The notes beneath the pieces were generated by a model. The model had not been told where the DNA came from. It saw nothing but the letters and a program-made list of their open reading frames with translations, and made no database searches. DNA of 64,000 nucleotides from Tissierella pigra (GTDB lineage: Bacteria; Bacillota; Clostridia; Tissierellales; Tissierellaceae): the NCBI RefSeq assembly GCF_009695605.1, contig NZ_VUNQ01000015.1, positions 1-64,000 of the forward strand. Reading direction: 5' to 3'. Position 1 is the stretch's first letter, and each line of letters starts with the position of its first letter. Positions 36,567 to 43,067 of this stretch are shown here, one piece after another. Position numbers and translations under genes: made by a program.

Positions 36567-38207
36567 TTATTGTTTGCTAATAGCTTCTTTTAAAATTATA
36601 TCTATTCTTTCTTCTTCATTTATAATCTTTCCTTGCTTTTCATCATAGGCATATAATGCTCCACTTACCATTCTGGTTTTAAGAGTACCTTTGGCTATTT
36701 TAGAGCCTTGTAAATGAGGTGCATCTAGTATTCCAACTCTTACTGCCTCAGTTAAAGTTGCTGGATCTATTAATGGATCTTCTACGCTTAAATTTAGAGA
36801 TTCTATTGTATCTATTATTACCTTCGCTTCTTTTATCAGTGTGTTTTTTCTTTCAAGAACATTTTTGTCCTTAGTCATATCTACTGAGCCTAAGAATTCA
36901 TTTTTTAGTATTCCCCTTACTATCATAGCTGACTCTATTATATCTTCAGCTTTTGCTGCATGATGAGCTTCACAAAATCCTACTACATGATATATATGAG
37001 GTTTAATTCCCATGGCTAAATATGCTGAGGCCGCCAACTGCCCCTTAGCTTGATAAAGATTAGTGGGAAAGCTTGCTAAACCTGCCCTTGCTTGACGATA
37101 TACATTAAAATCATCATCTACTAAACTTTCTACTAATTCTATCTTTGCCAACATCTTACCTAAATCCATTTCTGGAGAAATAGATGCTGGTACATTAAAC
37201 ATATATTGAGCTATATAGTCTTTTACTCCCATTTTTTTTGCATTATAGGCAGCAATATACGCTACTGCCACAGCTATGGAATCATGGGCATCTCTTAAAC
37301 TCCAATGATGTGGATCATTTACTTCTACGGGAATATTTCTTTCCCCATGCCATTTCATTACTTCTTGATTTTCTTTTAAGGCATCTATTAATTTTCTTGG
37401 TCCTCTGCCATCTAGTTCACTATACCAAAATAATGGAACTGCACACCAAGCATTGTCTATACTTTCTTTTAACAATTCGGCAAAAGGTATTATATTTTTT
37501 GTCCCACTATAGGAACGTAATAGTGGGAAATTTCCCCTTTGTGCTGCATTATGAAGCTCTTTAAAATCTTCCTTACTTCTTAAGGGTACTCCGCCTGCTC
37601 CATTTAGTCTTTCATCCATGTTTTCTTGGTCAAAGAAAAATTCTTGAGCATTTTGATCTGGTGCAATAGAAATTATATCTATTACTTTTGCTTCGGATAC
37701 TTTTTCTATTGACTCTATGGTTTCTTCTATAGTTGGTAATCCTAAGTGATGTCTTAATATTGGATACGGATATTTAGATTTTATTCTATTTATTAGGTCT
37801 TTTGGATAAGATTCTTCTTTTGATAAATCTTGACCCTTTAGATATGCTATGACTTCGTCAATATCTTCACTGCCATCAAATACTTTATGAAAAATTTCAT
37901 ACTCCTTAGCCACTAATGATGTAGGTTCTGTTCCACCAAATAACCAAATTATATCTTTAATATTATTTTCAATTATCTTTTCTTTTAGTTCTTCTAGAAT
38001 TTGATAAAGTGGCTCTGGAGTTAATCTATAGGATAAAGCTACTATATCAGGCTTTTTTTCATTGATTAAATTTATTATTTCATCTACTGATTTACCTATT
38101 CCTATAAAATCAGTATAATACTTCTCTTGATCTGCTAAATTTAAGTAATTCATTATTCCTGCCACATGTACACAGTTACCTAAAGTTCCCGCTATAATCT
38201 TTTTCAC
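36567..38207 (-). CDS. Cobalamin-binding, mutase-like protein
   Basis: 546 residues. The N-terminal about 135 residues look like a B12-binding Rossmann domain: NCVHVAG at 12-18 (an HxxG motif in place, the usual preceding Asp not present), SYRL near 60, and LFGGTEP near 89-95. The rest resembles the TIM-barrel partner of B12 mutases such as MutE, with WCAVPLFWYSELDGRGP, NDPHHWSLRDAHDS and VPASISPEMD. The B12 domain being at the front is unlike OraE. The GTG start overlaps the stop of the upstream gene (TAGTG). No substrate can be named. A related methyltransferase-type function is not excluded. Confidence 0.6.
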   Translation of the reverse strand: MKKIIAGTLGNCVHVAGIMNYLNLADQEKYYTDFIGIGKSVDEIINLINEKKPDIVALSYRLTPEPLYQILEELKEKIIENNIKDIIWLFGGTEPTSLVAKEYEIFHKVFDGSEDIDEVIAYLKGQDLSKEESYPKDLINRIKSKYPYPILRHHLGLPTIEETIESIEKVSEAKVIDIISIAPDQNAQEFFFDQENMDERLNGAGGVPLRSKEDFKELHNAAQRGNFPLLRSYSGTKNIIPFAELLKESIDNAWCAVPLFWYSELDGRGPRKLIDALKENQEVMKWHGERNIPVEVNDPHHWSLRDAHDSIAVAVAYIAAYNAKKMGVKDYIAQYMFNVPASISPEMDLGKMLAKIELVESLVDDDFNVYRQARAGLASFPTNLYQAKGQLAASAYLAMGIKPHIYHVVGFCEAHHAAKAEDIIESAMIVRGILKNEFLGSVDMTKDKNVLERKNTLIKEAKVIIDTIESLNLSVEDPLIDPATLTEAVRVGILDAPHLQGSKIAKGTLKTRMVSGALYAYDEKQGKIINEEERIDIILKEAISKQ

Positions 38208-39331
38208 TAAGCAACACCTTCCTCACCTTTTTTATCTTTTTTGTCTATTCCTCCTATTTGTGCAATTTTATGCATATCATATACTGATAGTCCTTTTAAT
38301 CCTAATTTCTCTATAGTTCGACCTTCTACATAAAAATTCCTTCCTGTTATTAATTCTGCAATATTTATAATGGAATTAATAGCTGGAGTTTGGATCCCTA
38401 ATTCTATAGCTATAGATGCCATAGGTATCAAACTATAAGGTACATCTTCATAGATATATCTAATATTTAACCCCTTTGGTGCCTGAAGTCCTTTGTATGC
38501 AGAATTATTTTGAATTGTTTCATAAAGATTTTTTCCTTTTGCTCCGTAGGATTCGCATAACCATTCCTTAGCAGATAAAGTATTTATTTGAAGAATTTTT
38601 CCTATTTCCATTCTCTCATGATCCATTTTTTCTAAAAAATCTCCTATGGATGGAGTTATGCCTTCTATATAATATTCAAAAGCTGCCCCTCTTTCAATAT
38701 GCCCACTATTTAATAATGTTGGTGCTGGATGAAATATTGCTCCATAGTTATTTATACTTGTTTCAAGAACATCCTTAGCAGGAATAAATTGTGGATAAGC
38801 AAATTTAAGTAAGTTGATTACATGATTTGTTTTAGATGAAGGTATAGCTCCTATGGTTACTTCATTTTTCACCTGAAATATATGGGCACTATTTTGTGAA
38901 GTGGCTCTACAAGCGTATATAAAAGTTTGAGCTTCTGCAACTACTATCTTTTTATTGCAGTTGTATTGTCTTAATGCTTCATATACCTCCAATGCCCCAC
39001 CTGTACGACCTGGATTTAAAACTATTATTTGCCCATCCTTTAAATATGGTGTCATTTCTATAGCCATCTGATAATGCCCCATTGCAGGTACTGTAACCAT
39101 AATTATATCTGCCCCATCTATAGCTTCTTCCATTATGTTAGTTACCTTGTTTAATTTGCCTTTTCCCGTTACTTCTCCAGTTAGAGATATTGTTGGATTA
39201 TTTATTAAAGATAGTATATTTTCTAATGTCCTATTGTATAAATTTACCTCATATCCTATCATGGCTAAATAACCTGCCATTGCAATTCCACCATTTCCTG
39301 CACCTATAATACTAAATTTTAATCCTAGCAT
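38207..39331 (-). CDS. NAD/NADP octopine/nopaline dehydrogenase family protein
   Basis: 374 residues. The N-terminal Rossmann motif is GAGNGGIAMAGYLA (residues 9-22). The NMR/VTVPAMGH region follows. The C-terminal octopine-dehydrogenase domain has NNYGAIFHPAPTLLNSGHIE, with the catalytic His in FHPAPT. Relatives join an amino acid to a 2-oxo acid by reduction to make opines. It is the first gene behind the c-di-AMP riboswitch and is coupled to the B12 protein gene. The substrate is unknown, but an amino acid derivative is likely. Confidence 0.8.
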   Translation of the reverse strand: MLGLKFSIIGAGNGGIAMAGYLAMIGYEVNLYNRTLENILSLINNPTISLTGEVTGKGKLNKVTNIMEEAIDGADIIMVTVPAMGHYQMAIEMTPYLKDGQIIVLNPGRTGGALEVYEALRQYNCNKKIVVAEAQTFIYACRATSQNSAHIFQVKNEVTIGAIPSSKTNHVINLLKFAYPQFIPAKDVLETSINNYGAIFHPAPTLLNSGHIERGAAFEYYIEGITPSIGDFLEKMDHERMEIGKILQINTLSAKEWLCESYGAKGKNLYETIQNNSAYKGLQAPKGLNIRYIYEDVPYSLIPMASIAIELGIQTPAINSIINIAELITGRNFYVEGRTIEKLGLKGLSVYDMHKIAQIGGIDKKDKKGEEGVA

Positions 39332-39387
39332 TTAATCATCCCCCTTAAATTTTTTGTCTCATTTTATGTTAACTGGATTTGAGGGAC

Positions 39388-39415
39388 AAAAAAAACTATG
39401 GGCTTCCATAGTTTT
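39388..39415 (-). terminator. Riboswitch-controlled intrinsic terminator
   Basis: On the minus strand the stem AAAACTATGG/CCATAGTTTT (39415-39406 with 39401-39392) with a four-base loop is followed by T residues. It lies between the c-di-AMP aptamer and the opine dehydrogenase start (39331), the position of an expression platform. Confidence 0.85.
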
Positions 39416-39445
39416 GAAATCAACAGATTTCATGCCCCCTTTATT

Positions 39446-39551
39446 TGCTTACGAGGTTAGCTGTCGGGTTCGGGCTAAAGGGTTATGCCCGTCCTATAAT
39501 GGATTCACCCCAAAAAAATTGGTTCCCCCGCTTCAAAAAGCGAATTAAGCA
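39446..39551 (-). promoter_or_regulatory. c-di-AMP riboswitch (ydaO/yuaA class)
   Basis: The minus strand reads the ydaO-class aptamer: P1 TGCTTA/TAAGCA at the ends, GCGGGGGAACCAA, GGGGTGAATCC, AGCCCGAACCCGACAGC and TAACCTCGTAAGC in the standard order. This class binds cyclic di-AMP and, in known cases, lowers expression through a terminator. A terminator follows at 39388-39415. Controlled genes of this class are often for osmolytes, potassium and cell wall. A diadenylate cyclase gene is at 48.3-49.1 kb in this window. Confidence 0.93.
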
Positions 39552-39764
39552 TTATTCGTTTCGAGACTAGAATTATTATACCATATTAACCATTTTTTTG
39601 CAAAAACCCTTTTTTGACAAAATTTGATAATTTAATTTTCTATAATTTTTTAATGTTTATTTTTCTGCTGTTTACTATCACCTAATTGGACGATCTGAAT
39701 ATATTATAGTATGTACAGACAATACAAGCTATTAATGGCTCATTATATAGGGAGGAAATAAAAT

Positions 39765-40652
39765 ATGTATAGATCAGTAGAAGGTACAAACATTAGTAAT
39801 GTACGAGTATTTGATAATACCCATGGAAAAACAAAATGTAACTATAATCCTTCAATTTCGGAGTGTAGTAGTAATTCAAAATATCCCCACTCTTGCGTAG
39901 AAGTTAAAACTAATATGTTAGATAGTTGTACTAATACACCAATTACTCCAGTAGGTATAACTACAGGTGTCATAGCTAAAATTCCAGTAGTATTAGCTGA
40001 ATTAACTGTACAATTCCATCTTAGTTCACTAATTAAATTACCAGAATTAGCTCTTGATGTTAAAAATATAAAGAAAAAAGTAAAAATCACTCAATGTCTT
40101 TTACTTCAACCCACTAATATATTGTTTATTAAAGGGTTTATCCGTAAAAACATTGACTATACTACAGGCAATTGTGCAAATATGGAAGGTATATGTGGAG
40201 AACTACATCATTGTATAATAGATGTTCCTTTTGAATGTTCAACACCACTTACTTTCTATACTCCGCCAGAAGAACTTGCTGTAAATTCCAGTACTGAATT
40301 TGAATACTTTAAGGTTAGTAATTTACCAGATAAACATTTTGCTGAAAAAGATAAACTACTATCTGGAGATTTATCGGAGTTTAATCAGATTATAATTGAA
40401 AATTTCAATGAACTTCCATTCTGCGAATTAATTAATGCAAGAATTTTTGAATTTGATGAATTCATTGGTCGTCATCGCCCTTGTGGTGCTGAGTTCCCAA
40501 TTGAGGAAAAATTCTTTAACAGAATAGAAGAAAAAATGGTTATAGAATTTACAGTTAAAGTTTTACAAAATAGGCAAGTTCAAATTCCCGCAGTAACTGA
40601 TACTTCTGGAGGATGCCATCCTAAATTCCCATGTTCAGCAAACAAAGATTAA
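39765..40652 (+). CDS. Cysteine-rich spore surface protein, CsxC/exosporium-like
   Basis: 295 residues with no signal peptide. Many cysteines cluster at both ends (for example KCNYNP, SECSSNS, SCVE, CTNTP near the front and GGCHPKFPCSAN at the end), and the middle has TTGVIAKIPVVLAELTVQF, a conserved pattern of clostridial exosporium/DUF3794-type proteins. Such proteins form disulfide-linked layers outside the spore coat. The gene stands alone with a terminator after it. The family match is from memory of sequence style and is moderate. Confidence 0.55.
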   Translation: MYRSVEGTNISNVRVFDNTHGKTKCNYNPSISECSSNSKYPHSCVEVKTNMLDSCTNTPITPVGITTGVIAKIPVVLAELTVQFHLSSLIKLPELALDVKNIKKKVKITQCLLLQPTNILFIKGFIRKNIDYTTGNCANMEGICGELHHCIIDVPFECSTPLTFYTPPEELAVNSSTEFEYFKVSNLPDKHFAEKDKLLSGDLSEFNQIIIENFNELPFCELINARIFEFDEFIGRHRPCGAEFPIEEKFFNRIEEKMVIEFTVKVLQNRQVQIPAVTDTSGGCHPKFPCSANKD

Positions 40653-42006: not shown

Positions 42007-43067
42007 TATTTATCACCTCCATAGATTTTCTTTACATGTTCAATTATTGCGTCTGGTGTAGGTACCATTCCTCCTGATCTTCCATAGAAAGATACAGGAA
42101 ATTTACCTTCAACAGCTATTTTAACATCATCTATCATCTGTCCATTATTCATTTCAACTGTTAGTATACCTTTACAGTTTGGATTTATTTTCTTAAATTC
42201 ATCAAATGGATATGGCCATAATGTAATAGGTCTAATTAGTCCTACTTTATATCCTTCTTTTTCTAATTTTGCTATGGCTGTTTTTGCTATTCTTGATGTA
42301 GTTCCATAAGCTGCTATAACCACATCTGCATCTTCTATATTATATGATTCTACTCTACACTCGGTTTCCTGCATTTTTTTATATTTAGCTTGAAGTCTAA
42401 TATTGTGAGCTTCTAAATCTTCTGCTGCTATATATAAAGAGTTTATTATATTTGGTTTTCTCTTATCTCCAGTACCTACTGTAGCCCAATCTTTTTCTGG
42501 TAAATCTCTTTTTGTTGGAGTTTTAAATTCAACTGGCTCCATCATCTGTCCAATCATACCATCTCCAAGAACCATAACTGGATTTCTGTATTGGTCTGCT
42601 AGATCAAATCCTTCTATAATTAAATCAACTAATTCCTGAACATTTGCTGGAGCAAATACTACCATTCTATAGTCTCCATTTCCTCCGCCTCTAGTTGCTT
42701 GGAAATAGTCAGTTTGTGAAGGCTGAATACTTCCTAAACCTGGACCACCTCTCATTATATTAACTAAAAGACAAGGTAATTCTGCACCAGCAATATATGA
42801 AATACCTTCTTGTTTTAATGCCATTCCAGGACTTGATGACGATGTCATTACTCTAGCACCTGCTCCTGCAGCACCATAAACCATATTTATTGCAGCTACT
42901 TCTGATTCTGCTTGTAAGAATACTCCTCCTACCTTTGGTAACTCCCTTGACATATATTCTGGTAGTTCTGATTGAGGAGTTATAGGGTAGCCAAAGAAGT
43001 ACTTACATCCTGCTTGAATTGCTGCTGCACCTATAGCCTCATTACCTTTCATAAGAACTTTAGTCAT
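42006..43067 (-). CDS. vorB: 2-oxoisovalerate:ferredoxin oxidoreductase, alpha subunit VorB
   Basis: 353 residues with MKGNEAIGAAAIQAGC, GYPITPQSELPEYM, TSSSSPGMAL and MRGGPGLGSIQPSQTDY, the alpha-subunit pattern of VorB-type enzymes. It acts on branched-chain oxo acids from valine, leucine and isoleucine, or on related acids. Its operon partners (Ptb, Buk) recover ATP from the acyl-CoA, supporting a branched-chain role. A 2-oxoglutarate-type specificity is possible but less likely. Confidence 0.9.
   Translation of the reverse strand: MTKVLMKGNEAIGAAAIQAGCKYFFGYPITPQSELPEYMSRELPKVGGVFLQAESEVAAINMVYGAAGAGARVMTSSSSPGMALKQEGISYIAGAELPCLLVNIMRGGPGLGSIQPSQTDYFQATRGGGNGDYRMVVFAPANVQELVDLIIEGFDLADQYRNPVMVLGDGMIGQMMEPVEFKTPTKRDLPEKDWATVGTGDKRKPNIINSLYIAAEDLEAHNIRLQAKYKKMQETECRVESYNIEDADVVIAAYGTTSRIAKTAIAKLEKEGYKVGLIRPITLWPYPFDEFKKINPNCKGILTVEMNNGQMIDDVKIAVEGKFPVSFYGRSGGMVPTPDAIIEHVKKIYGGDK

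Follow-up and report, generated by a model that had tools for sequence, protein, structure and literature searches.

What would be made by an operon in which a c-di-AMP riboswitch stands before an opine-dehydrogenase-like gene and a B12-binding, mutase-like gene, and why should it answer to this signal? c-di-AMP has a central place in the osmotic control of Gram-positive bacteria. The operon lies on the minus strand of the window, the stretch of 64,000 nucleotides of Tissierella pigra (contig NZ_VUNQ01000015.1) that was analysed. A reading made from the sequence alone had proposed that a B12 mutase step yields an unusual amino acid, which is then joined to an oxo acid to give an opine-type compatible solute; here we follow up that proposal by computation.

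The riboswitch leader and the operon

The features of the locus, in order of transcription, are the following.

39575-39603, minus strand: sigma-A-type promoter (TTGCAA, 17 nt, TATAAT; consensus scan, 10/12)
39430-39561, minus strand: c-di-AMP riboswitch aptamer (ydaO/yuaA, RF00379; cmscan)
39384-39415, minus strand: intrinsic terminator of the expression platform, AAAACTATGG AAGC CCATAGTTTT followed by a U-run
38207-39331, minus strand: gene 1, opine-dehydrogenase family enzyme, 374 aa
36567-38207, minus strand: gene 2, predicted single-chain AdoCbl mutase, 546 aa
36498-36528, minus strand: operon-end terminator hairpin, 14 bp, which can act on both strands

The sequence-only reading had placed a ydaO aptamer on the minus strand within 39380-39600, and a covariance-model search returned, inside that interval, a full RF00379 match of 100.8 bits, well over the gathering score of 38 (E 9e-23, model positions 1-134 complete). 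In the promoter upstream of it, a TG precedes the -10 hexamer. The intrinsic terminator that had been read between the aptamer and gene 1 was recovered by a computed scan, as hairpin and U-run at 39415-39392, and is the sole such site in the region, where a mean of 0.3 is expected from shuffles; its fold z is -3.6 to -4.6, and the hairpin (AAGCTATGG...CCATAGCTT) is found again in relatives. RF00379 riboswitches are OFF switches, as in B. subtilis ydaO/kimA with its intrinsic terminator (PMC9960051), and their target classes are transporters, osmoprotection and wall genes (PMC9960051, PMC7266159). From the riboswitch class together with the terminator, we infer that the leader is likewise an OFF-type expression platform, as had been proposed. 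The T. pigra genome has two RF00379 sites, the second of which precedes, by sequence reading, a SleB-like wall hydrolase gene.

Genes 1 and 2 overlap by one base (TAGTG), a coupling that is seen directly in the sequence, now as in the earlier reading, and the hairpin at the operon end is a strong one. The divergent neighbour (39765-40652, plus strand) encodes a DUF7852 domain (PF25250). No plasmid match was found for the locus, and the idea that the pair is a mobile oddity was rejected because the pair is spread across many genomes.

Gene 1, an opine-dehydrogenase family enzyme

Gene 1 aligns over its full length with N-(1-D-carboxyethyl)-L-norvaline dehydrogenase (CENDH, PDB 1bg6; E 5e-77), and its octopine/nopaline dehydrogenase domain matches PF02317 at E 6e-45 (153 bits against a cut-off of 30). 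Its Rossmann part matches NAD_binding_2 at 31.5 bits (cut-off 21). The catalytic residues H212, R324, D329 and W278 of octopine dehydrogenase correspond to H201, R291, D296 and W257 of gene 1, and they are invariant in 45 relatives. Because of the PF02317 and CENDH matches and the conserved H-R-D-W residues, we consider gene 1 to be very probably an active opine dehydrogenase; what had been described as opine-dehydrogenase-like is a true member of the family.

Gene 2, a predicted single-chain B12 mutase

For gene 2, Pfam gives a B12 domain at residues 3-115 (E 1e-7, slightly under the Pfam cut-off) and no match for the C-terminal 400 aa, and sequence searches of Pfam, NCBIfam and the PDB with the mutase alone found nothing beyond the B12 domain; placing the barrel needed profile and fold searches. 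The AlphaFold model, built on 53 relatives, has a pLDDT of 93, and its best Foldseek match is glutamate mutase subunit E, with which residues 133-538 align at a Z of 32.7 and an rmsd of 3.1 A over 377 residues (VIA-align). The next fold matches are lysine 5,6-aminomutase, ornithine 4,5-aminomutase and methylmalonyl-CoA mutase. With a B12 domain and a full mutase barrel, the protein is placed more firmly than the earlier label of a B12-binding, mutase-like protein had allowed. Its domains are as follows.

Residues 1-126: B12-binding domain, with H14 as cobalt ligand
Residues 133-538: TIM barrel like that of glutamate mutase E

By hhalign, the gene 2 family aligns weakly and over the full length with GlmE proteins (E 7e-5), at moderate reliability. 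The adenosyl-site glutamate of GlmE, E330, is kept as the invariant E413 in this profile alignment. In the B12 motif, H14 and G17 are invariant, and CxHxxG replaces DxHxxG in 44 of the 48 short-form mutases (the Cys being residue 12 in gene 2), a substitution that is unusual among His-on B12 enzymes. Long-form relatives of about 610-640 aa (L113, L114, L115, L110) have the canonical DxHxxG; the one at L113:5362-7266 sits, by reading, behind znuABC-type zinc transporter and Fur-type regulator genes, and the one in L115 sits behind Ddl and an opine dehydrogenase.

In glutamate mutase, the substrate is contacted by R66, R100, R149 and E171 (PMC9545868). This arginine claw with E171 was looked for in gene 2 and was not found as a set: in the hhalign alignment, which is of moderate reliability, R100 becomes Q188, E171 falls at about A256, R149 falls on Y233 or a neighbouring residue (R231 lies two positions before Y233), and R66 may correspond to R152. 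PF06368 (Met_asp_mut_E) has no match in the entire T. pigra genome, and only a few distant mutase relatives pass it, weakly. The PLP lysine of ornithine aminomutase (3kow) falls in a four-residue insertion that is absent from the gene 2 family, and A25 is present in all 48 short-form mutases; a PLP-dependent aminomutase identity was rejected because the PLP lysine segment is absent. Six invariant or near-invariant arginines near strand ends (R152, R210, R231, R268, R305 and R374) could accommodate a substrate that bears two or three carboxylates. We conclude that gene 2 encodes a predicted AdoCbl carbon-skeleton mutase, single-chain and PLP-free, whose substrate would not be free glutamate, and that it belongs to an unnamed single-chain family without most of the glutamate mutase substrate contacts. 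With no equivalents of R100 and E171, its pocket would fit a free amino acid but equally a substrate that is substituted or has no amine, and the mutase may just as well act on an opine.

Conservation of the pair and its riboswitch

A search for the same pair and riboswitch in other genomes, which had been suggested along with the sequence-only reading, found both. Among 398 genomes sampled from the phylum, 95 contain a member of the mutase family when weak B12-domain matches are counted, and an opine dehydrogenase gene is present with the mutase in the same stretch at 67 of the 73 loci examined (some of which come from the same genomes), nearly always immediately upstream of it. The functional pairing of dehydrogenase and mutase, proposed from a single locus, is conserved in many genomes, and with such a spread a reading that confines it to Tissierella was rejected.

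The search for RF00379 covered 63 genomes that have a short-form mutase; in 36 of them, which represent 16 families, it stands immediately ahead of the operon. A genome holds about 1.6 riboswitches, a density at which chance would yield fewer than 0.1 such placements against the 36 observed, and chance placement was rejected. The riboswitch is found at the operon in all 11 named Tissierellia/Clostridiales loci; none is found at the operon in the actinobacterial locus L014, and when 11 pair loci that lack RF00379 were searched for riboswitches of other classes, none was found. Elsewhere (G300, G346, G336), the riboswitch precedes an opine dehydrogenase gene located away from the pair. When the riboswitch label is mapped on the mutase tree, it has to change 8 times, and starred branches force at least 4 of these changes; we therefore regard the link between riboswitch and pair as recurrent. 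The identities of dehydrogenase and mutase also show a tree-like agreement (r 0.82), which we do not take as proof, since common descent alone gives such agreement.

Variants of the arrangement were also seen. Two tandem c-di-AMP riboswitches (G072 C37:42548-42674 and 42814-42937) stand before one operon, the pair being that of L067, while in G009 (L144) and G011 (L146) a riboswitch and opine dehydrogenase occur without an adjacent mutase; in G011, the following gene resembles an M20-type amidohydrolase.

Partner genes in relatives

No third gene is universal to the pair, and flanking genes such as fab, vor and EF-G are lineage-specific. Some relatives have GlmL, Asn-synthase and Ddl-like partners, which were absent from the earlier account. 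The GlmL reactivase (PF13941) adjoins the mutase in L072, L075 and L085, and is fused to it in L108:3844-7542 (1233 aa) and L109:1742-5380 (1213 aa); the only GlmL in the T. pigra genome sits in an ornithine aminomutase operon. The fusion in L108 lies next to Opp transporter and GntR genes and is perhaps a catabolic version.

Asn-synthase-type amidotransferase genes come after the pair in L069, L076, L102 and L107, and stand behind a riboswitch of their own in G367 (twice) and G064. One AsnB, tested against NCBIfam, scores as an ordinary asparagine synthase B and misses the NAGGN amidotransferase cut-off, so that we regard an amide step as no more than a lead. Ddl-like ATP-grasp genes are found inside riboswitch operons (L081, L085, L087, L088, L092) and behind their own riboswitch (G176, G252, G142, G346). 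In the T. pigra genome, Asn-synthase-type and Ddl-like partners under a riboswitch were looked for and none was found.

A possible route to an opine-type solute

By sequence inspection, the other RF00379 sites in pair-bearing genomes precede genes for betaine ABC, Ktr/KUP-type K+ and amino acid transporters, as well as Opp transporter and wall hydrolase genes; the Opp-type oligopeptide transporter operons are those of L142 and L153. The sites before betaine ABC and K+ transporters support the osmotic role that had been proposed from the sequence. Because the same riboswitches serve transporters and wall genes, and because the switch is of the OFF type, synthesis of a solute at falling c-di-AMP is in our opinion the best reading, and we think it probable, on balance, that this is a two-gene osmoadaptation operon encoding a c-di-AMP-repressed route to an opine-type compatible solute.

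The order of events would then be as follows. High c-di-AMP would favour the leader terminator, while at low c-di-AMP (osmotic stress or K+ shortage) RNA polymerase would read through the leader. Gene 1 would reductively join an amino acid and a 2-oxo acid with NAD(P)H to form an opine, gene 2 would rearrange the opine, or else the amino acid that goes into it, and the product would build up as a compatible solute. Some lineages have an AsnB-type amidotransferase or a Ddl-like ligase under the same riboswitch, which may cap a carboxylate and thereby remove charge. We tentatively put forward a more specific version, possible rather than likely, in which the mutase acts on the N-substituted intermediate to give a rearranged (branched) opine solute, optionally amidated by AsnB or Ddl, that is widespread and c-di-AMP-controlled.

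Several points count against solute synthesis. Opine dehydrogenases are reversible, wall genes too are under c-di-AMP riboswitches, and the wall is where Ddl-like ligases usually act. In about 40% of the genomes with the pair, no riboswitch precedes the operon, and the distant relatives that have GntR and Opp genes (L108) look like catabolic versions. The AsnB that was tested scores as an ordinary asparagine synthase, and T. pigra has neither extra partner under a riboswitch.

The reverse order of steps, which is that of the sequence-only reading, seems to us rather unlikely. Here, an unusual amino acid would first come from the mutase (3-methylaspartate made from glutamate is one example), and the dehydrogenase would then couple it with pyruvate or glyoxylate. 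This is in line with the closeness of the gene 2 fold to glutamate mutase E, with the GlmL partners in relatives and with a T. pigra genome that has no ordinary GlmE; however, the profile alignment replaces the GlmE contacts R100, R149 and E171, so that glutamate would not be bound in the same way, and a true GlmE is also present in several pair genomes (G051, G106, G177, G198).

It is improbable that the pair makes a cell-wall building block or modification under c-di-AMP control like that of the wall hydrolases. The Ddl-like genes in riboswitch operons would agree with such a role, as would the other riboswitches of pair-bearing genomes that precede wall hydrolases, but most pair loci have no adjacent wall gene, Asn-synthase partners are ill-suited to it, and in the window the core pair stands alone.

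We give equally little credence to a catabolic pair, in which an imported opine would be oxidised by the dehydrogenase, its amino acid fermented via the mutase, and consumption shut off by c-di-AMP. Tissierella-like organisms ferment amino acids and carry ornithine aminomutase, the mutase-GlmL fusion lies with Opp and GntR genes, and RF00379 also precedes Opp operons; yet the riboswitch-controlled pairs have no transporter or fermentation gene as a constant neighbour, L108 is only distantly related and has no riboswitch nearby, and an OFF switch for an osmotic signal suits synthesis better than consumption. Finally, that gene 2 is a B12 sensor or methyl carrier and no enzyme of this pathway is hardly credible, since the B12-binding domain that Pfam shows alone, just below cut-off, is accompanied by a full mutase barrel, a conserved adenosyl-site glutamate and GlmL neighbours and fusions, which already contradict this.

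Significance and comparison with known systems

The targets usually named for c-di-AMP riboswitches are transporters and wall genes, whereas solute synthesis would place a biosynthetic pair behind the riboswitch in at least 16 families. The recurrence of riboswitch and pair would link vitamin B12 to osmoadaptation, would establish a mutase family that is new and whose chemistry can be tested, and would suggest that many anaerobes, relatives of Tissierella and [Clostridium] ultunense among them, hold a major solute as yet unrecognised. Should the route to a rearranged opine solute hold, no earlier case is known to us of an osmolyte made with the help of B12, nor of a mutase that acts on an opine. 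In the literature, we found no paper linking opine dehydrogenase with glutamate-type mutases, and none joining opine dehydrogenase with c-di-AMP riboswitches; the dehydrogenase may already be among the genes listed in Block 2010 and Nelson 2013.

Compared with known ydaO/yuaA (RF00379) systems, the leader has the same complete aptamer and intrinsic terminator as B. subtilis ydaO/kimA (PMC9960051), but unlike the described target classes (PMC9960051, PMC7266159), what it controls is a biosynthesis-like enzyme pair. Gene 1 is of the same family, over its whole length, as CENDH (1bg6) and octopine dehydrogenase (3c7a), with H-R-D-W conserved; unlike both, it comes together with a B12 mutase and under a riboswitch. 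The barrel of gene 2 is like those of lysine 5,6- and ornithine 4,5-aminomutase (Z 31 and 27), but unlike ornithine aminomutase, it has no PLP lysine segment in the alignment. For the amidotransferase and ATP-grasp partners, the comparison is one of working principle: in NAGGN osmolyte synthesis, amidotransferase and ATP-grasp enzymes make a neutral solute, and no NAGGN genes are present here. Closest to gene 2 stands glutamate (methylaspartate) mutase, GlmS/GlmE with GlmL, which shares the His-ligand B12 domain, the GlmE-like barrel, the adenosyl-site glutamate and, in some relatives, the GlmL partner. Unlike there, the two parts are fused into a single chain in gene 2, the B12 domain being N-terminal, CxHxxG stands in 44 of the 48 short forms, and the R100 and E171 contacts are not kept in the profile alignment.
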